60,015 bases of DNA from a virus, in IMG/VR virus record IMGVR_UViG_3300044621_001273, positions 1 through 60,015 of that record, one strand, 5' to 3'. This document shows positions 20,517 through 54,247 of the stretch, piece after piece. The position numbers and the translations under genes are program-made. Position 1 is the stretch's first letter; every line of letters begins with the position of its first letter. Under the pieces are notes generated by a model that saw nothing but the letters and a program-made list of their open reading frames with translations, was not told the origin of the DNA and made no database searches.

Positions 20517-21011
20517 ATGCTTACTTGTAGAAAGTGCAAAAAAGAACTACCACCAGAAAAATTTGGTATTGTATACAAAACCCTAGCAACGGGGGAGAGA
20601 AAAGGATACAGACAAACTGCTTGTATGGTTTGTTGGAGAAACAGCTATTTAAGCAGAGAAGGAAAAAGAGACATACATCGAGAAGGTAGTAAAAACTGGT
20701 ACTACAACAACCCTGAAAAAGCTAAAGAACAAAGACTCAGAAAATATAAAATAAGCCTTGAAGAATACAATTTGATGAGGCTACAACAAGAATACAAATG
20801 CGCCATATGTGAAAGAAGTGAACAAGAAGTTGAACAAGGAAGAGCCAAGAGCACTGAAACAGCTTTACAAGTAGATCATTGCCACACTACAGGTGCTGTA
20901 AGGGGTTTACTCTGTACTAACTGCAACACAATGCTTGGTAAATCAAAAGACAATGTAGGTGTGCTTCAAAAAGCAATTGAATACCTACGCGACAAGGAAA
21001 CAGTGCTATGA
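20517..21011 (+). CDS. Recombination endonuclease VII
   Basis: The 164-aa protein resembles T4 gp49, which cuts branched DNA such as Holliday junctions before packaging. Two zinc CxxC pairs frame the core (CAIC and LLCTNCN), with the signature VDHCH...G.VRGLLC and the preceding YKISLEEYNLM. An extra CRKCKK...CMVC finger stands at the N-terminus. The gene is visibly more A/T-rich than its neighbours and has its own leader, suggesting independent acquisition. Confidence 0.9.
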   Translation: MLTCRKCKKELPPEKFGIVYKTLATGERKGYRQTACMVCWRNSYLSREGKRDIHREGSKNWYYNNPEKAKEQRLRKYKISLEEYNLMRLQQEYKCAICERSEQEVEQGRAKSTETALQVDHCHTTGAVRGLLCTNCNTMLGKSKDNVGVLQKAIEYLRDKETVL

Positions 21012-25911: not shown

Positions 25912-26500
25912 CCTAGAGAGCGTCGTTGCCTATTGTGCTCGGGTAAGCAATCCCAGCAATCAAAGCAACGACGCAACAGCAGGTAAGTTGTTGCGCTATT
26001 GCATGAAGCATGGACATTGGTCTGTGTTTGAAATGGGCAACATCTGTATAGAACTGGAAACAACAAGAGACATTGCTAGGCAGATTCTTCGACATCGCAG
26101 CTTCAGCTTTCAAGAGTTTAGCCAGCGCTATGCTGAAGTCACTGACTACAGCGTCGGTGAAGCCAGGCTACAAGACAACAAGAACAGACAAAATTCCATC
26201 CCCACTGAAGACCGAGAGCTAACACGCTGGTGGACAGAGCAGCAAGTGTCGGTGTGGATCAAGGCTAGACAGGCTTATGAGCAAGCGCTGGCAAATGGTG
26301 TAGCAAAGGAAGTGGCTCGGAAGGTGTTGCCTGAAGGGCTGACGATGTCGAGGATGTATGTCAATGGTACAGTACGAAGCTGGTTGCATTACATTGATGT
26401 TCGATGTGATGTTGCTACACAAAAGGAGCACAGAGATGTAGCAGAGCAGTGTAAAGAAATTGTCTACAATCTTTTACCTTCATTAAAGGAGAAGGTGTGA
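25874..26500 (+). CDS. thyX: FAD-dependent thymidylate synthase
   Basis: The 208-aa enzyme converts dUMP to dTMP with methylenetetrahydrofolate, FAD and NADPH. The ThyX signature RHRSFSFQEFSQRY stands at residues 73-86, and the C-terminal region has RSWLHYIDVR and AQ-type residues of the substrate site. It supports thymidine supply for phage DNA together with the reductase at 27900. The start overlaps the previous gene by 38 nt; the stop overlaps the methyltransferase GTG. Confidence 0.93.
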   Translation: MTARAKLIWATPNLESVVAYCARVSNPSNQSNDATAGKLLRYCMKHGHWSVFEMGNICIELETTRDIARQILRHRSFSFQEFSQRYAEVTDYSVGEARLQDNKNRQNSIPTEDRELTRWWTEQQVSVWIKARQAYEQALANGVAKEVARKVLPEGLTMSRMYVNGTVRSWLHYIDVRCDVATQKEHRDVAEQCKEIVYNLLPSLKEKV

Positions 26501-27306
26501 ATGAGTTGGCTCTTTTCGCAGGCGCTGGTGGAGGAATTCTTGGGGGACATTTGCTCGGATGGAGAACCGTCTGCGCCGTTGAATGGGAACCCTATCCAGC
26601 AAGCGTACTTGCCGCCAGACAGAATGACGGCGTTCTCCCGACTTTCCCAATTTGGGATGATGTTCAAACCTTTGACGGAAAACCGTGGAGAGGAATTGTT
26701 GACGTCGTATCTGGAGGCTTTCCGTGCCAGGACATATCAACAGCAGGAAAAGGTGCTGGAATCAACGGAGCAAGAAGTGGAATGTGGTATCACATGGCAC
26801 GAATCATCGGAGAAGTACAACCAAAATATGTCTTCGTTGAAAACAGCCCAGTCCTACGTACTAGAGGACTTGTCAGAGTTCTCAAAGACCTTGCCTCGCT
26901 CGGGTATGATGCAAGATGGACAGTATTGGGAGCAGCCGACGTCGGTGCTCCGCACAAAAGAGATAGGATGTGGGTTGTGGCCCACTCCAACAGTCTGCGG
27001 CAAATACAATCGCAAGGGAGCCAGCGCGACCAGCGGGGATGGTTTAGCGACGGCAGTGAAGATGTGGCCAACACCTCAAGCACAAGATGCAAAACACAGC
27101 GGCAAGAACACAGAGAACAGGATAAATCAAGGAAGACAGTTGCAGCTTGCCCACACAGCAGGTATTGGTGGCAAACTGAACCCAACGTGGGTAGAGTGGC
27201 TAATGGGATGGCCGCTCGGGTGGACCGACTTAAAGCCATTGGTAACGGACAAGTCCCCCTATGTGCCGCAGAAGCCTTCAAGCACTTGTCACAACAGTTT
27301 ACCTGA
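26497..27306 (+). CDS. dcm: C5 cytosine DNA methyltransferase
   Basis: The 269-aa enzyme should methylate cytosines in phage DNA, protecting it from restriction. Motif I is LALFAGAGGG, motif IV GGFPCQDIS with catalytic Cys77, motif VI VENSP, motif VIII PHKRDRMW, and motifs IX-X VDRLKAIGNGQVP. The target-recognition region is short. It starts at GTG 26497, 5 nt after AAGGAG and overlapping the thyX stop. Nearly its whole length is overlapped by another open frame (26501-27337). Confidence 0.9.
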   Translation: MNELALFAGAGGGILGGHLLGWRTVCAVEWEPYPASVLAARQNDGVLPTFPIWDDVQTFDGKPWRGIVDVVSGGFPCQDISTAGKGAGINGARSGMWYHMARIIGEVQPKYVFVENSPVLRTRGLVRVLKDLASLGYDARWTVLGAADVGAPHKRDRMWVVAHSNSLRQIQSQGSQRDQRGWFSDGSEDVANTSSTRCKTQRQEHREQDKSRKTVAACPHSRYWWQTEPNVGRVANGMAARVDRLKAIGNGQVPLCAAEAFKHLSQQFT

Positions 27307-27337
27307 CGGCAGCTACTACGGAACCAACACAGCATGA
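26501..27337 (+). CDS. Second protein encoded in an alternative frame across the methyltransferase gene
   Basis: A 278-residue frame with no stop runs through the methyltransferase gene. Its product carries blocks that I recognise from 'hypothetical' phage proteins: LTENRGEELLTSYLEAF, EKVLESTEQEVECGITWH, LPRSGMMQDGQYWEQPT, GLWPTP and LNPTWVEWLMGWPLGWTDL. ATG 26501 uses the same AAGGAG as the methyltransferase (9 nt). Its stop, not that of the methyltransferase, forms the ATGA overlap with the next gene at 27334, as expected for a translated cistron. It could still be a frame shadow kept open by the conserved methylase sequence. Function unknown. Confidence 0.6.
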   Translation: MSWLFSQALVEEFLGDICSDGEPSAPLNGNPIQQAYLPPDRMTAFSRLSQFGMMFKPLTENRGEELLTSYLEAFRARTYQQQEKVLESTEQEVECGITWHESSEKYNQNMSSLKTAQSYVLEDLSEFSKTLPRSGMMQDGQYWEQPTSVLRTKEIGCGLWPTPTVCGKYNRKGASATSGDGLATAVKMWPTPQAQDAKHSGKNTENRINQGRQLQLAHTAGIGGKLNPTWVEWLMGWPLGWTDLKPLVTDKSPYVPQKPSSTCHNSLPDGSYYGTNTA

Positions 27338-44511: not shown

Positions 44512-45806
44512 CTCAAGCCTACATAGGCTCTTCGTTCACTAGAAGATGTTGTTCTATCGGAAGTGACATAGACAATGCGTTGTTGAGCATCAACAGACAC
44601 TCTTCTTGTGTCTCTACCGTCAACATACACTTTTCTTGTTTGACCATCAATGTAGGTCTTTCTTTCATCTTTAGAGCCTACATAGACAGTGCGTAGTCTT
44701 TCATACAGCTCTTTAACAGCTTCATAGTCAAAGGAGGTGTTGACTACTGCTTCATTACCTAGCGCTGTAGTGCCTACAACACCAGCAGCAAATACCTGAG
44801 CCTTGGCAATGACAATGACGGTTTGAACGAATGCTGTAGCGCTCACGCCTACAACATCGAAGCTGGCGTTGGTGATGAAGTCTACATCGCCTACAACGCC
44901 TGTAGCGCTTACACCAACAGCACTAACATTGGCTGTGGTGTTTACTGTCTCATCACCTAAGGACGTTGTAGCGCTAACACCTGTTGTCGTTGCTGTGATG
45001 GGAATGGACGCAACAGCAGTGCCTAAGGAGATGGTAGCGCTAACACCAGTGACGCTGATGTTGGCATTGGTGCTGTGGTCTACGTCTCCAATGCTTCCAT
45101 TGAGGATGTTGCCATTGGGATAGGCATTAGCATCAGCAGTGACAACTTCGTTGCCTAATGTTGTTGTAGCGCTAACGCCTGTGACATCAACAACAGCATC
45201 TGCTGTGACAACAACAGAGCCTACAGCGCTTGTGGTACTAACGCCTGTGGCGCTTACGTTAGCAACACCAGCAACAACAACAGAGCCTACAGAGGCTATG
45301 GTGCTGACGCCAGTGACGTCTACAACAGCCTTAGCAACAACAACTTCATCACCTAATGCTGCTGTAGCGCTAACACCTGTAACGTCTACAACAGCAGTGC
45401 CAGTGACAGCAACAGAGCCTGTAGCGCCTGTAGCGCTGACGCCTGTGACAGGAACGCTGACAAAGACAGCAGCAACAACAGAGCCTACAGAGGCTGTAGC
45501 GCTGACGCCTGTGACGTCTACGTTAGCGTCTGTGTTGACATCAACAGTGCCGACAGAAGCTGTAGCGCTGACGCCTGTGACAGGTACTGACGTTACAAAG
45601 ACAACAGTGACGCTACCAACAGCACCTGTGGCACTGACGCCTGTGACGTCTACAGAAATGCCTACATTGACGTTGACGTTACCAACAGAACCTGTAGCGC
45701 TGACACCAGTGGCATTGACGGTGACGGGGCTACCGCCACTGGCTTCAAAGAGCCAACCAAAGGAGCCGTTGTTGGTGCTATTATTACCAGCGTACCAGTT
45801 GCTCAT
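44508..45806 (-). CDS. Repetitive fibre or adhesin protein with about 15 GVSAT repeats (432 aa)
   Basis: After a Gly/Ser start, a unit of about 18-20 residues (V.VTGVSAT..VGSV.V) repeats about 15 times to residue 350, predicted to form a beta-solenoid. The C-terminus is helical, then has a second repeat RK(T/V)Y(I/V)DG..., like beta-prism tips. Such proteins build host-recognition fibres; copy number can vary by recombination. It overlaps the giant fibre gene by one base. Confidence 0.7.
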   Translation of the reverse strand: MSNWYAGNNSTNNGSFGWLFEASGGSPVTVNATGVSATGSVGNVNVNVGISVDVTGVSATGAVGSVTVVFVTSVPVTGVSATASVGTVDVNTDANVDVTGVSATASVGSVVAAVFVSVPVTGVSATGATGSVAVTGTAVVDVTGVSATAALGDEVVVAKAVVDVTGVSTIASVGSVVVAGVANVSATGVSTTSAVGSVVVTADAVVDVTGVSATTTLGNEVVTADANAYPNGNILNGSIGDVDHSTNANISVTGVSATISLGTAVASIPITATTTGVSATTSLGDETVNTTANVSAVGVSATGVVGDVDFITNASFDVVGVSATAFVQTVIVIAKAQVFAAGVVGTTALGNEAVVNTSFDYEAVKELYERLRTVYVGSKDERKTYIDGQTRKVYVDGRDTRRVSVDAQQRIVYVTSDRTTSSSERRAYVGLS

Positions 45807-48800
45807 TAGTATGCCCTAACGCCTGTGATGGTGAGATAGTCAACATCGGCTGCTGTACCAGAGCCTGTGTGGACTAATGTGCATGGAGATGATGCAGAAG
45901 TCCCCGTCAGTGTCAACACTCTTCCAGCTTCACCAGTGGCAGTGAAGCTACCAACACGCTGTGTTGTTGTGCCGAAGGCGATGGTGGTGGCACCAGTGGC
46001 TTTGTAGGTGTTGGTGATGTTGGCGAAGGTGTTGTTGCCGCTGATGGTGAGAGTGCCTGCGCCGCCTTGGTTGAGGGTGATGTTGGTGTAGGCGATGCCG
46101 CCGCCAGCGAAGGTTTTGGCTGATGCAGAGGTGAGGCTGATGGTGCCTGTGCCTGTGACGGTGAGGTTGGTGGAGGTGGTGGCATCCCATGAAGTCCCGG
46201 CGTCAGTAACGGCACACAGACTAGAACCAATATTTAATGTTCTAACATCAGTGCCTGAAAGCCTCCAAACTGCTGATGTTATTGAATAATCATTTGTATT
46301 AAATGTTCCAGATGTAAGTGTTACGCCATTAAGTCCTTGCGTTGTAGTCAAAGAGTCAAGACAAGATACGCTACCAGATCGCGCATTTATAATGACACCT
46401 TGTGTGAATGTTTTTCCTGCGCTTGTAATAGTTTGACTTCCTCGCCCGGCAAACGTAAATGACCCGGAGTTGCTCAAGGTAGTACCTGTACCGTTAATCC
46501 AGTTCCCGTGAATAAACGGAGCTTGAGTACAAGCCAACGTCATCGTATTCGTCGTCCTAGCCGACATATCAATCGTGCCGATGTTGTAGGCTTGGTTGAT
46601 GGTAATGGTAGCGCCGCTGTTCAACCCCGTAGCTTCAAAGAAGCAGGTGTCTTGGGCAAGCGGGAAGTCGTTGATGTTTGGCGTGCCGCCGCTGCCTGTA
46701 GCCCAGCCCGTTGCAGACCAGTTGCCGCCAGCAGCAAGGTTCCAATACTTGTTCGCCGCAGCCGTGAACGTGATGCCGCTGTTGCCTTTGCAATCGCCAA
46801 TGCGCGTGCCCGTCGCTGGCGCTGCTACACCGGCTATGGTGATGTCTCTGAAGTCAACGTCGGTCAAGGACACAGCCGCGCAGGTGAGCGTGCGTGTGGT
46901 GCCGAGGGTGTCAGAGCAAACGAAGTGACGCATCGTGGCGTTGGTGCCTGCTGAGCAGGTGAGGGTGCCTGTGATGGTCTGGTCTGCTGTGACGCTGATG
47001 ACCTTCAAGCCAGCAGAGGTGATGCCGGTGAAGGACAGGTCGTTGAAGCTATTGGCTCCGTTGATGGTGACGGTGCCTGCGGATGTGTCAGTAAATGCGA
47101 CGTTATAGAAGGTTTTGCCATTTCCTGAAAAGGTTGGGTTGCTTCCAGTGCAGTTAATTTGCGCAGTTCCGGCAACAATCGTAAGATCAGCAGATGTAGT
47201 TTCCGTAGTTCCAAACGCAAATGCGCCACTACTACCAGAAGTCGTTATAGTCCCGGACCCAAAGTCAAAGGTTCTTATATTAGAAGAACTGCAGGTAATT
47301 CCCCCACATGTCAAATTGTACGTTACACAATCAAAAACTCCATTAACTAACGTAAAGCCCCCTACTGTGCTCAAATCTAAAGCACTACCCAACACCCATT
47401 CACACCCCACCCCATTCACCGTAATGGACGATGCCAACGTCACACCGTTTGTCGTCAACGTCAACCCAGACGTAGACCCAGACAGCGTGATAGCGCCTGT
47501 GTACGTCCTCGTCAGCCCTGTCGCAGGCAGCGTCACGTTGCCGTGAATACCAACAATAGCTGTGCTGCCTGCCAGCGTCACGTTGCCCACCAACGGGCCT
47601 GCAATGGTGAGGGCTTTGCAGCGAATGCCGCCAGTGACAGCATTCACCGTGGCTGTGTAGGCTGTGGCGTTGGACAGGCTGTCGAAGACAACATCATCAT
47701 GGCTTCTCGGCACAGACGCGCCTGAGCCTCCACCAGACCCTGTAGACCAACGAGCGGTGTCGCTCCAGTTGCCTGTGCCACCAACCCAGTAGCGCGTGCT
47801 GTCGGCTGGCTTGGCTGTGCGGTAGACAGGCGCTGCCGCTGTGCCTGTGCTGTTGGCACCGGCGTAGAACTCACCAGGGCTTGTGGCAGCAAAGCCAATG
47901 CTGCCCATGGCAAGGTAGTCAATGCTGTCTGTGCAAGCTCCAGCGAGGATGTGAGAATTGCCTGAACCAGTCAGCGTGACCACGTTACCCACCGTACCTG
48001 TAACCGTCCAAGCGCCAAAGGTCTGTGTGAATGCGCCAAGGGCGATGGTGTGGGCTACGGTCTTTGTTGAGGCAAGTTCGGTGAATTGGTTACTGTCGTT
48101 AATGGTAGTAGTAGATGTGCCCGTTGCGCCTCCAATGGTGAGTTTGTTGTAAGACAAAGCGCCGCCAGAAAATGTACGAGCAGTTGTGCTGGTATCAGAT
48201 AGAACGATGTTGGCTGTGCCTTTATAGAAAACGGGGGTTGCCGATATTTGCCATACGTTTCCAACACCTGACAAAGTCCAAGTACCAGAACCCATTTTTA
48301 GTGTAGATAGCACAGAAGTGTTTGAAAATAAACCTATCGTTACATTGTATGTAACCGCATCGAATACCCCTTGAAATAAACTTAATGTTCTAGTGGAGCC
48401 TATAATTAACGCATCACCAAGTTGCGTTGTGCTAAAAGGTTGGATAGAAATATTACAACCAAACGTAACTCCATTGCTGGTAATGGTCTGAGTGCCACGT
48501 TTGGCAAAAGTAATCGTGCCTACTGTGCTGGATGACGTAACCCCAGTGCCAAACTTCCAATCGCCGTAAACAAACGGAGTGTTGGTGCTGGTGGTGAGCG
48601 TCATCGCACTAGTCCGCAACGACGCATCAAACGTGCCGATGTTCCAAGCAGCATTGATTGTGATGGTGCCTGTGACGCTGCCAGCAGCTTCATCAAACAC
48701 CGCTGTGTCCTGCGCCAATGGGAAGTTGTTGATGTCAGGACTGCCACCAGAGGAAGGTGCCCAAGCTGTAGCAGACCAGTTCTGTGCTCCAGCAAGGTTC

Positions 48801-50845
48801 CAATAGACGGTCTTCGCCGCAGGGAAGGTGATGCCGCTGTTGCCGCCACAGTCGCCTGCACGGGTCGGAGAAGAGCCTGCTGCGGTGCCAGCAATGGTGA
48901 TGTCGCGGAAGTCGCAATCGTCGGCACTGAGCGTGCCGACTGTGAGGGTGCGGGTGGTGCCGAGGGTGTCAGAGCGGACGAAGATGCGACGGACGGCTGT
49001 GGCACCGGCGACGGTGAGGGTGCCGGTGATGGTTTGGTTTGCCGCAAAAGTGTATTGCATCAACCCCACCGAGGCAGGCGCGCTAATGGTTAGATTGTTA
49101 AAACTACCTGCAATACTTGAATTATTGCTGTGCTGAGCGCTACTAGTTCCTGTATAGGTTAAATTATACAGTGCTGCTCCTCCGGGGTTTATAGAAGTAC
49201 TCCCTGTTGCTGAAAAATTTATTTGTGAAGTACCTGCGTTAAAAGTAAGATTTGTTGGTGTTGTTAACGTTAATGGAGACGTACTATTCAACGTCACCGT
49301 ACTCGACCCCAGCAATATCGCCCTGACGTTGCTGTTAGATGAGGATACCTGCCCCCCGGTTACGTTGTAGTTTTTGGTGTCGAAGGTGCCGTTGGTTACT
49401 GTAAACGGATTATTAGAGCCGATATCAAGCGCGTCACCAAGCTCTACTGATCCGCCATAAGAATCGACCGTAAACGCTTGTGAAAATGTTTTACCAGCGC
49501 TTGTAATGACCTGCGTATTTCTCCCAGAGAATGTCAAAGCGCCTGAGTAGGACCGTGTCACCCCACTGCCAAACTCCCAATCACCATACACCGTATAAGC
49601 CGTCGATCCAGCCAACGTCATCGCATTTGTGCGCGTTGACATGTCAATAGTGCCAAAGTAAGGCACAGGCGCATCAAGCGTCACCGTAGCCGACGTATTC
49701 AACCCTGTGTTCTCGATGACAGCCGTGTCCTGCGCCAACGGGAAGTTGTCTGTGCTGACACCAGCACCAGAGCTTGCAGCCCAAGCGTTGGCAGACCAGT
49801 TGCCGCCAGCAGCCAAGTTCCAATACACCGTCTTGGGCGTGTCGAAGGTTATGCCTCTGCACCCGCGCAGGTCTCCAACACGAGTGCCGCTGATGGGCGC
49901 GGCTGTGCCGATGACGTAGATGTCTCGGAAGTCTGCGTCGGTCAGGCTCGGGGCTGAGTTGATGGTGAGGGTTTGGGCGATGCCGTAGGTGGCACTTCTG
50001 AACCAAACTCTGCGGTTGCCTGCGGTGCCCGTGGTGGAGAGGGTGCCGTTGATGGTTTGACGGGAGTCGAAGGTAAATGAACGGACGCCAGCCGCCGACG
50101 GCCCTGCAACCGATATATTATTAAACGTATTAACGCCAACAATATTGTGCGTAGAAGAAACAGTTGATGTGAAAGAAACATTATAAAATGTTACACCTAC
50201 ACTGCCGCCAGCCGCGCCCCCGCGCACTGAAGCTGCACTTCCCGTACAGATGATAGTGGATGTTCCAGCGTTAAATGTTAAATTTGTATTGTTTGTAAAT
50301 AGAACAGCCGTTATAATAGAACTTACACTTACTGTAGAAGACCCTAAATTTATAGTCCTAATATTGCTGTTATTGGACGCAAATTGAGTAGCTGTAACAT
50401 TGTAATCTGCTGTGCTAAATGTACCTGCAGTTACGATAATATCGTTTGAAGACGTCAGCGCATCCCCAAGCGTCACCGTAATACCTGCCCCGTTTATCGT
50501 CACCGACCCCAAGGTCTTACCCGCTGTCGTCAACGTCCCAGTTCCATTCAGCGTCAGCGTACCGCTGTACGTCACCGTCATCCCCGCCACAAGCGTAACG
50601 CTGCCAGATACGGTGATGGCTGCTGTTCCCGCCAACGTCCCCGTAAACCCTGTGCAATTGATGGACTTGGCACCGGTGTTTCCGCTGGAGATGGTGCAGG
50701 TGCCGGAGGAGGTGGCGTCAAAGAAAACGTCGTCAGCGCTTGTGGGAACGGCTGCGCCACCAGCGCCACCAACGGTATCAGCCCACTTCGTTCCAGCGGT
50801 GCCATCCCACGCGGCAGTTCCACCGCGCCAAAAACGATCTGCGAT
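45806..50845 (-). CDS. Giant modular tail fibre, ATC in place of the start codon (1679 aa)
   Basis: The protein is built of five homologous modules of roughly 300-340 residues, each opening with a W..GGT..W or YWNLA..NWSA block and DDVFFD or AQDTAVF, then beta-helix-like strands (GKTF, V.LGDAL, NYNVT). It is a likely receptor-binding fibre. The frame stays open and homologous to an internal module back to 50845, where the expected ATG reads ATC, 8 nt after AAGGAG and straight after the HNH stop. The first usual in-frame start is TTG 50635, inside module 1. Either a non-AUG start, a damaged start or an assembly error. Confidence 0.8.
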   Translation of the reverse strand: MADRFWRGGTAAWDGTAGTKWADTVGGAGGAAVPTSADDVFFDATSSGTCTISSGNTGAKSINCTGFTGTLAGTAAITVSGSVTLVAGMTVTYSGTLTLNGTGTLTTAGKTLGSVTINGAGITVTLGDALTSSNDIIVTAGTFSTADYNVTATQFASNNSNIRTINLGSSTVSVSSIITAVLFTNNTNLTFNAGTSTIICTGSAASVRGGAAGGSVGVTFYNVSFTSTVSSTHNIVGVNTFNNISVAGPSAAGVRSFTFDSRQTINGTLSTTGTAGNRRVWFRSATYGIAQTLTINSAPSLTDADFRDIYVIGTAAPISGTRVGDLRGCRGITFDTPKTVYWNLAAGGNWSANAWAASSGAGVSTDNFPLAQDTAVIENTGLNTSATVTLDAPVPYFGTIDMSTRTNAMTLAGSTAYTVYGDWEFGSGVTRSYSGALTFSGRNTQVITSAGKTFSQAFTVDSYGGSVELGDALDIGSNNPFTVTNGTFDTKNYNVTGGQVSSSNSNVRAILLGSSTVTLNSTSPLTLTTPTNLTFNAGTSQINFSATGSTSINPGGAALYNLTYTGTSSAQHSNNSSIAGSFNNLTISAPASVGLMQYTFAANQTITGTLTVAGATAVRRIFVRSDTLGTTRTLTVGTLSADDCDFRDITIAGTAAGSSPTRAGDCGGNSGITFPAAKTVYWNLAGAQNWSATAWAPSSGGSPDINNFPLAQDTAVFDEAAGSVTGTITINAAWNIGTFDASLRTSAMTLTTSTNTPFVYGDWKFGTGVTSSSTVGTITFAKRGTQTITSNGVTFGCNISIQPFSTTQLGDALIIGSTRTLSLFQGVFDAVTYNVTIGLFSNTSVLSTLKMGSGTWTLSGVGNVWQISATPVFYKGTANIVLSDTSTTARTFSGGALSYNKLTIGGATGTSTTTINDSNQFTELASTKTVAHTIALGAFTQTFGAWTVTGTVGNVVTLTGSGNSHILAGACTDSIDYLAMGSIGFAATSPGEFYAGANSTGTAAAPVYRTAKPADSTRYWVGGTGNWSDTARWSTGSGGGSGASVPRSHDDVVFDSLSNATAYTATVNAVTGGIRCKALTIAGPLVGNVTLAGSTAIVGIHGNVTLPATGLTRTYTGAITLSGSTSGLTLTTNGVTLASSITVNGVGCEWVLGSALDLSTVGGFTLVNGVFDCVTYNLTCGGITCSSSNIRTFDFGSGTITTSGSSGAFAFGTTETTSADLTIVAGTAQINCTGSNPTFSGNGKTFYNVAFTDTSAGTVTINGANSFNDLSFTGITSAGLKVISVTADQTITGTLTCSAGTNATMRHFVCSDTLGTTRTLTCAAVSLTDVDFRDITIAGVAAPATGTRIGDCKGNSGITFTAAANKYWNLAAGGNWSATGWATGSGGTPNINDFPLAQDTCFFEATGLNSGATITINQAYNIGTIDMSARTTNTMTLACTQAPFIHGNWINGTGTTLSNSGSFTFAGRGSQTITSAGKTFTQGVIINARSGSVSCLDSLTTTQGLNGVTLTSGTFNTNDYSITSAVWRLSGTDVRTLNIGSSLCAVTDAGTSWDATTSTNLTVTGTGTISLTSASAKTFAGGGIAYTNITLNQGGAGTLTISGNNTFANITNTYKATGATTIAFGTTTQRVGSFTATGEAGRVLTLTGTSASSPCTLVHTGSGTAADVDYLTITGVRAY

Positions 50846-50846
50846 T

Positions 50847-51557
50847 TTAGCTCTCCTTAAATCTCAATGCCTTGTGTCCATGCGTATCCAACTTTACATG
50901 GCAAGGCCGACAAACAGTTCTTCCGTTACTCACGTCATACCGAAGATCTGGAAAGGCACACCACGGTTTAATGTGATCTGCCTCTAAATACCCGCCCCGG
51001 GTGTTACAAATTTTACAACTCCAGTTATCTCTTACAAAGACCGCGTTTCGCCAGTCTCTATATGGGTACTGCGCCATCGCTGTTTTACGCTCTGATCTTA
51101 AGCCACCACGCCAATTCGGATGATCTGAACCGTGACGATAGTTTTGTCTTTGAAACTCAGAGATCTTTTTGCGAGTCTCGTCTGAATGCCCCCGTTTTTC
51201 TGGCGGTACTAGGTCAGGATGTCCTTTCGTAAACAAGCCTTTTAACTCTCGGCCGGCGTAGTAGCAAACCTTACTGCAAAACTTCTTGCGTCCAACTTGA
51301 TTGGGCTCAATTCTCATGTCAACGCCACAAGTCTTGCAGTTAATGTGAACTCCTTCTGTTTTGTTCCATGCGGGCCTGCCGTTCTTTATGCCTTTAAATG
51401 GTGACGGTTTACCTCGTAGTGCCTCGGCTGCTTTGGTAGCTCGAAGAGCGTAAGAACACTCCTTAGAACAAGTTGTCTGCCGCCCGTGCTTTAAGCGTCC
51501 CAAATCTGCAAAATAACTCTTATTGCAGATAGGACAAAGCCTTTCGACAGACTCCAT
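50847..51557 (-). CDS. Free-standing HNH homing-type endonuclease
   Basis: The 236-aa protein has three zinc-type cysteine modules (CPICNKSYF, CKTCGVDMRI with CSKVC, and CKIC...CRPCH), NUMOD3-like segments (GKPSPFKGIKNGRPAWNK and GHSDETRKKISEFQ) and an HNH core LEADHIKPWCAFPDLRYDVS. This plan is typical of mobile homing endonucleases. It is wedged between a small late gene and the fibre gene, leaving 3 nt and 1 nt of spacer. It may home on its own or help the capsid intron 2 kb upstream in the transcript. Confidence 0.88.
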   Translation of the reverse strand: MESVERLCPICNKSYFADLGRLKHGRQTTCSKECSYALRATKAAEALRGKPSPFKGIKNGRPAWNKTEGVHINCKTCGVDMRIEPNQVGRKKFCSKVCYYAGRELKGLFTKGHPDLVPPEKRGHSDETRKKISEFQRQNYRHGSDHPNWRGGLRSERKTAMAQYPYRDWRNAVFVRDNWSCKICNTRGGYLEADHIKPWCAFPDLRYDVSNGRTVCRPCHVKLDTHGHKALRFKES

Positions 51558-52882: not shown

Positions 52883-54247
52883 TTAGGCCACGTTGTACTT
52901 GGCCGTGGTCAGAGCCTCAGGACGCAAAATCTTGCGACCATAGAGGTGCATACCACGAACAATGTCAGCAAACGAGTCCGGATCGCGATAGGTCTCAGTC
53001 TTGTTGATCTGCTCAGCAGAGGCAACAGCGCTGTCGTGACCGGCAACGATGACACCGAAGTTGCTGTTCTGGTTAGCCGTGCCTGTCGTGCCTGGGCCAG
53101 TGCCAACCTTCGGCAGGTTGTTGCTGACATAGATCTTGAAGCCGTGCAGGTTGTTCAACAGAAGACCGTTTTGCAGACCAGAGCCACCGAAGTCTGCATT
53201 CAGAAGACGGCTGTCCTCGTCCTTCAGCACTTCAACGAACACCGGATCAACCACAAGCCAACGACCATTGGTGTCAACGTTTTGTTGATCCAACAGACGC
53301 GACATACGAGCAATGATCATCAACGGCGACACCAGATCAGTCGGCATCGTCGTGACCCCAGGCAGACGCGCTGCAATGGGAATCGAATGATCACCGGCGC
53401 TGGCTGTGGTGATGTTGCCAAACGAGCTCTTGATGAGCTTCATCGTCGTCAACAGTTCGTCGTTACCAGCAGTCGAAACAGCCTTCGTACCAGGGAAGGT
53501 AGTGCGGGCGGTGTCGGCGCTGCCATGCAACACAGACTGTTGATAACCAGCGAGGTAGCCGAGAACGTCTTGGTCGAACTGGTCCTTCAAGCGATAGGCA
53601 GCACGATCAGATGCCAAAGACATCCAATTGATGTGCGACTGAGTTGCTTCGATGTCGTCAACTTTACCTTTATATTCAGCAAGGGTCGTTAATCCTTACC
53701 CGCTTTATTCAAGCTGCTGCATTTTTCAATGCAGAGTAGACTATATCATCACCCTGACTTATCAGGGGCTGGGCGCTTCCGCTCACTTGAGCGTATGGAT
53801 TTCATCTCCCCGTAGGGCGGTATATCCTAGTCGTTGAACCTTCAAAGACCTTTCGGTCTATGCTTGGCTGCTGATTGCCTTAGCTATTATGCCTTAGGTT
53901 TTCCAGCAATTAACCCAGTTATTTAGATGAGATTACTCTCAAATGCGTCTGTTAGTGTTAAACGCGAAGTAGTTGGCCTTATCGACAACCAGCGTGAAAT
54001 CGCTGTCATCAAGGTCTTGAGCCGTCACTTGAGTGCCGCGTGCATAAGCCTGAACGCTGACCTCGGGCTCCTTAACGATCTTAACTGAGTCCCCCATGCT
54101 GGAGATTTCTCCGAAATATTCGGAGTTGGTGATCGCTTGAGCGACCGAAGATTTCCTAAACGCGAGTTGTACTTTTTTACTGTAGATAATTGGCGACCAA
54201 TTACCATTTTGGAGGCTTGTATAGCCCGAAGCTGATGCAAACGCCAT
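52883..54247 (-). CDS. Major capsid protein, split by a group I intron
   Basis: Exon 1 is 54247-53961 and exon 2 is 53666-52883; joined they give 1071 nt and 356 residues. Exon 1 encodes MAFASASGYTSLQNGNWSPI to VVDKANYFAF, exon 2 KVDDIEATQSHINWM to the end EALTTAKYNVA. The sequence (DFTLVVDKANYFAF, LASDRAAYRLKDQFDQDVLG, WLVVDPVFVEVL) is that of an HK97-fold capsid protein of podovirus type. Without splicing translation stops after NTNRRI. AAGGAG precedes the ATG; scaffold upstream, decoration downstream. Confidence 0.92.
53667..53960 (-). ncRNA. Group I self-splicing intron (294 nt)
   Basis: Minus-strand elements: P1 pairs exon GCGTT-T with AGACGC (53950-53945) and places the U-G pair at the 5' site; P2 TGAGA-GTAA-TCTCA (53941-53928); P4 TGCTG with CAGCA; P6a AGACC-GAAA-GGTCT; R segment GTTCAACGACTAG (53839-53827) and S segment GATATAGTC (53747-53739) forming P7 (GACTA/TAGTC); P9 CTGCATT-GAAA-AATGCAG (53734-53717). 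The intron ends in G (53667). It has no open reading frame of note. All these are standard group I features. Confidence 0.9.

Follow-up and report, generated by a model that had tools for sequence, protein, structure and literature searches.

An intron without an open reading frame, of the group I type and very probably from a mobile family, interrupts the major capsid gene of an uncultured HMO-2011-type phage

We analyzed 60,015 nucleotides of viral DNA, positions 1-60,015 of the IMG/VR virus record IMGVR_UViG_3300044621_001273 (this whole stretch is called the window below), in which the major capsid gene, of the HMO-2011 type and on the minus strand, is split in two by a 294-nt insert. The insert is a group I intron that is predicted to be self-splicing, and we put at roughly 95% the probability that it is a group I ribozyme interrupting the capsid gene as the form of a mobile element that has no open reading frame (ORF). 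The ribozyme fold, the splice borders, compensatory changes between exon and guide, a patchy distribution, and an intron that is nearly identical in capsid alleles that have diverged are all directly supported.

The interrupted capsid gene and its splice borders

Without splicing, the gene reads as an ORF at 54247..53939 that ends in YFAFNTNRRI and a stop, and a second ORF at 53623..52883 that holds the remainder of the capsid. The capsid frame thus terminates at residue 102. Removal of 53960-53667 gives one continuous frame of 356 amino acids with the junction FAF/KVDDIE in codon 96, phase 2, and the resulting protein matches the phrog_267 major head protein (E 3.3e-64). It is a sound inference, given the stop at residue 102 in unspliced RNA, that capsid supply in this phage would depend on the predicted splicing at codon 96.

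The part of exon 2 from Met53623 onward is matched by 78 phage records. Capsid identity of the window exon 2 is 80% to MW202701, an uncultured podovirus from Manatee Spring, and 73% to HMO-2011 and CRP-1, and by this homology the gene belongs to the HMO-2011-type group. The closest annotated records (the Manatee Spring podovirus, Roseobacter phages CRP-1 and CRP-9, and HMO-2011) all have uninterrupted capsid genes, and among the 80 nearest relatives, retrieved with exon 2, three genes are interrupted. In 75 intronless relatives the capsid aligns without gaps over the junction, codon 96 being TT/Y AAR there (slash, insertion point). In the Manatee Spring record (MW202701.1), the closest of the annotated relatives without the intron, the intact capsid gene is immediately preceded by a gene (L269:4985-5554) that is annotated as a PacI-like HNH restriction endonuclease.

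Exon 1 ends in GCGTT and the final intron base is G53667, and ligation at these borders restores the frame of the 75 intronless relatives. Base pairing between the internal guide GACGC and GCGUU at the end of the exon places a U.G pair at the cut. In contig L089 both sides have changed together, to exon GCCUU and guide GAGGC, and at another insertion site in the gene, codon 106, contig L254 has CGCU with GGCG in place of the usual CUCU with GGAG. Such paired changes would otherwise be hard to explain, so we conclude that P1 forms with these borders. Guide pairing that ends in U.G is present at sites 21-106. An earlier note on this DNA, made from the sequence alone, had claimed a group I intron that stops the capsid frame after NTNRRI and interrupts it for 294 nt, cut after GCGTT with a U-G pair and ending at G53667, so that YFAF joins KVDDIE in frame to give 356 residues. 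These borders prove to be right to the base and agree with those of the intronless relatives.

Ribozyme fold

The Rfam group I model (RF00028, Intron_gpI) covers 53970-53717 on the minus strand, complete from model position 1 to 253, at 92.7 bits (E 1.5e-22). The P3-P9 core thus scores well above the curated cutoff of 50 bits; the model is a generic one. The minimum-energy fold of the window intron contains P1, P2, P3, P4, P6, P6a, P7.1, P7.2, P8, P9, P9.1, and P9.2, that is, every canonical helix other than P7, which is the expected pseudoknot (z = -3.12 against shuffled sequences). GNRA loops close P2 (GUAA), P6a (GAAA), and P9 (GAAA). P7.1 and P7.2 come after P7 and before the 3' strand of P3, suggesting subgroup IA, which we take to be the usual one in phages.

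We examined covariation in 37 distinct ORF-less introns from several sites of this capsid gene family. P2, P3, P4, P6, P7, P7.2, and P9 have standard pairs in every cell of the alignment, and two-sided changes occur in 33 of the 66 pairs overall. In P7, all 185 cells are standard and 2 of the 5 pairs show two-sided changes. Over the whole structure 86.5% of cells are standard, compared with 72.7% in shuffles (maximum 74.2%) and 35-47% in slid versions. Given the covariance score and the 75 intronless relatives that read through the junction, chance is excluded as an explanation. An intein was rejected, since all three reading frames of the segment contain stop codons and the segment fits an RNA model.

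All the helices named in the earlier note (P1, P2, P4, P6a, P7 with its R and S segments, and P9) were recovered, with the GNRA loops, and the covariance search, exon-guide compensation, and helix covariation bear out its assignment. The minus strand, P3, P7.1, P7.2, P8, P9.1, P9.2, and the mobile family at eight sites go beyond it. Coordinates are collected in Table 1.

During splicing, the guide GACGC would hold the 5' exon end GCGUU in the pre-mRNA through the U.G wobble, a guanosine bound in P7 would attack after that U, and the freed exon 1 would then attack after the terminal G (53667), giving a ligated capsid message of 356 codons.

Table 1. Coordinates of the interrupted capsid gene, its intron, and the codon-340 introns in other contigs
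Feature	Position	Strand	Details
Exon 1, major capsid gene	53961..54247	-	Residues 1-95 and two bases of codon 96; ORF, homology to intronless capsid genes
Group I intron, 294 nt, ORF-less	53667..53960	-	Codon 96, phase 2 (TT/T); RF00028; missing from 75 relatives; identical in L091 and L095
Exon 2, major capsid gene	52883..53666	-	Codon 96 to stop; homology of the part from Met53623, phrog_267
P1 5' exon side, GCGUU	53961..53965	-	Last U at the splice site
Internal guide sequence, GACGC	53945..53949	-	Pairs with GCGUU including the U.G wobble; compensated in L089 (GCCUU/GAGGC)
P2, 5 bp, GUAA loop	53928..53941	-	100% standard pairs, two-sided changes in 5/5 pairs, 37 introns
P3 5' strand, CUGGG	53914..53918	-	3' strand CCCAG at 53773-53769; 100% standard pairs, two-sided changes in 4/5
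P7 5' strand, GACUA (R segment)	53828..53832	-	Guanosine-binding helix; 100% standard pairs, two-sided changes in 2/5
P7 3' strand, UAGUC (S segment)	53739..53743	-	37-intron covariation alignment
P8, CCCUGA-UAAG-UCAGGG	53752..53767	-	Fold; 85.5% standard pairs in the 37-intron alignment
P9, 7 bp, GAAA loop	53717..53734	-	100% standard pairs, two-sided changes in 5/7
Codon-340 introns	L073:3052-3784; L089:3224-3950; also L218, L221, L222, L226, L227		Near the capsid stop codon

Copies at codon 96 and evidence for mobility

With a pattern that requires the terminal intron G ahead of the 3' exon, we found 14 other contigs in IMG/VR with an insertion at exactly the same base as in the window, six of which exceed the Rfam cutoff at that site. 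They fall into an ORF-less size class of 270-294 nt (L083, L087, L091, L092, and L095) and a class of 806-837 nt with an ORF of about 160-200 codons (L082, L084, L086, L088, L089, L090, L093, and L094); the copy in L085 is cut by the contig end. The extra DNA of the large copies sits in loop L5, and in most of them the final residues of the ORF (KAISSQA and stop) are read from the intron core. The protein encoded in L5 of L084 matches endonuclease VII (phrog_1035, E 7.1e-37) and also HNH endonuclease families. The window intron encodes no homing endonuclease, unlike these eight same-site introns. Introns that carry a homing endonuclease gene (HEG) miss the Rfam cutoff at site 96, with the exception of L089, and at sites 44 and 62, so these below-cutoff introns are assigned through alignment, exon borders, and core motifs only.

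The capsid gene might instead be a decaying pseudogene, or the insert an assembly error, such that the insert stays and no capsid protein is made; the unspliced stop at residue 102 and the uncultured state of the phage would both fit. However, the insertion recurs at the identical base in 14 other contigs, with exons and intron of L091 both identical to those of the window, and synonymous codon changes outnumber non-synonymous ones in both exons when the window is compared with L095, L094, and L084. On this recurrence and coding constraint we rejected the explanation, which we regard as having hardly any chance of being correct.

The intron of L095 is also identical to that of the window, and compared with the HEG-bearing copies the window intron is mismatched at 0-1 position of the 210-nt 3' part and at 3 positions of its first 69 nt. 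Exon 1 of L094, in contrast, differs from the window in 41 of 95 codons. Given that the ORF-less intron is nearly identical to HEG-bearing copies while the exons have diverged, it has likely spread recently. When 208 distinct capsid sequences are placed on a tree, the site-96 intron switches between presence and absence at least eight times among 13 carriers, so for the window intron the distribution is patchy and the intron is more similar than the exons. Exon differences mostly become fewer toward the insertion site, the pattern that homing with co-conversion would produce.

It is very improbable that the intron does not move and has been passed down vertically together with the capsid gene. 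That view can point to the missing endonuclease gene in the window copy and to intron cores that group mostly by site, but it has to contend with an intron almost identical between capsid alleles with widely different exons, with its patchy presence, and with HEG-bearing copies at the same site. We therefore keep to the reading of the window intron as the ORF-less form of a mobile element. The EndoVII/HNH-like endonuclease encoded in L5 of the sister copies would cut intronless capsid alleles, leading to homing with co-conversion, and the endonuclease gene would later have been lost in the window lineage. Self-splicing in infected cells, the endonuclease activity, and homing are here predicted from sequence.

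Some observations weigh against this reading. That all eight sites have a terminal U and G is imposed by the search patterns and site definitions and is no independent evidence. Pairing of P9.1 and P9.2 is poor across the multi-site alignment (36 and 40%), an effect probably caused by small indels that slip the alignment, so the support for both helices comes from the fold of the single sequence. For the endonuclease of the sister copies, PHROG gave the only matches, with none in Pfam or NCBIfam. The rise in exon identity near the insertion site may come in part from a conserved coding region.

Free-standing EndoVII-type and HNH endonuclease genes are present in the window at 20517-21011 (+) and 50847-51557 (-), outside any detected intron; one adjoins a primase/helicase gene and one is downstream of the capsid gene.

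Introns at other sites of the capsid gene

Using site-specific patterns and splice-border extraction in IMG/VR, scans that are biased towards carriers by design, we found 72 introns at eight codons of the capsid gene in 57 contigs: 5 at codon 21, 2 at codon 44, 3 at codon 51, 19 at codon 57, 1 at codon 62, 16 at codon 96, 19 at codon 106, and 7 at codon 340. These totals count records and not invasions, as contigs of one sample series can be near-duplicates. Thirteen contigs have two introns and L255 has three; L077 has two group I introns at positions other than that of the window. Most of the eight sites have Rfam matches, with many introns above the cutoff. In L255 (three introns) and L259 (two), the exon between the codon-96 and codon-106 introns, which in L255 are the second and third, is just 31 nt.

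All of the introns share one core family, so movement between sites is likely, and in a tree of the 150-nt core they group mostly by site. Exon targets are held in common by sites 21 and 96 (GCGUU) and by sites 51 and 106 (CUCU/CA). Spread between sites by way of these common targets would be compatible with reverse splicing, but we dropped the idea because the core tree is too poorly resolved to support it. Contig L257 has an apparent codon-57/codon-96 hybrid intron with codons 57-96 missing; this is probably an assembly chimera through the shared core and possibly a real recombinant, and we set it aside.

The codon-340 introns start after GGNCGT, and their first 51 nt encode K-I-L-R-S-E-A-x-x-T-A-K-Y-N-L-A-stop. 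The capsid C-terminus is thus encoded twice, once at the intron start and once in the real 3' exon behind the EndoVII-like ORF of the intron; between the two copies, 7-12 of the 17 codons have synonymous and 1-3 have non-synonymous changes. As a result, unspliced RNA would still give a complete capsid protein, and in these alleles the intron is apparently harmless even when unspliced. The long P1 needed at codon 340 is fully paired in L089 only (GGGCGU with GCGCUU), with about 3 bp secure elsewhere, which leaves the 5' splice site there less firmly placed than the one at codon 96. On balance we favor, with some reserve, the view that the capsid gene is an intron island, with at least eight sites, up to three introns per gene, and an exon of 31 nt, in which the codon-340 intron brings its own in-frame C-terminus and full-length capsid would be made spliced or not. 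If true, a group I intron could in this way persist in an essential gene independently of splicing.

Comparison with known systems

Group I introns in capsid genes are already known, and the window intron adds one more such case. In the mycobacteriophage LittleE (Cluster J), splicing of a major capsid gene intron was documented by reverse transcription PCR and N-terminal sequencing (PMC3706429). As in the window, the target is the same kind of gene, the 5' exon ends in U and the intron in G, and excision restores a capsid that matches intronless relatives. The LittleE capsid differs in being of the HK97 type from a siphovirus, and its intron is 819 bp, has a LAGLIDADG-related ORF on the opposite strand, and was called "most likely" group I (PMC3706429), whereas the window has a podovirus gene of the HMO-2011 type with a 294-nt ORF-less intron, an Rfam-matched core, an EndoVII/HNH-like ORF in L5 of the sister copies, and introns at eight codons of this one gene across related phages. 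The lactococcal phage Tuc2009, as cited in PMC3706429, likewise has an intron in a capsid subunit gene and belongs to a different phage group.

The fold could also depend on a protein or be largely inactive in vivo, so that slow splicing limits or regulates capsid output. We think this unlikely: the capsid gene is expected to be highly expressed, and growth state or GTP affects some phage introns according to literature discussed in PMC11878797, but the core here is intact and conserved, its recent spread implies a low cost, and the LittleE intron is spliced in infected cells (PMC3706429).

Several group I introns per gene, patchy and accompanied by homing endonucleases as in this capsid family, are described for DNA polymerase or terminase genes of Bastillevirinae (PMC11878797) and for terL and nrdD of Jug phages (PMC12363816). 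The targets there are enzyme and packaging genes, and the available portions of these two papers do not name the major capsid gene among them. We found no report of capsid introns in HMO-2011-type phages in the open-access literature. Less familiar, and perhaps unexpected even for a specialist, are how many sites are occupied within a single structural gene and the codon-340 intron with its copy of the C-terminus.

Gene finders split the gene in interrupted phages, so the structural marker most used for an abundant group of aquatic phages is there mistaken for a truncated gene. Capsid protein is needed in hundreds of copies per virion, yet its gene tolerates up to three ribozymes, a test of how little self-splicing costs. 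The alleles of this one gene, whether intronless, ORF-less, endonuclease-bearing, or multi-intron, provide a natural series for studying the homing cycle and movement between sites.

Other features of the window

Two nearly fully overlapping ORFs in different frames at 26497-27337 (+) both match DNA methyltransferases (phrog_363 and phrog_1008). In the structural region, an ORF at 45806-50635 (-) encodes a repetitive protein of 1609 residues that is rich in Thr, Ser, and Gly.
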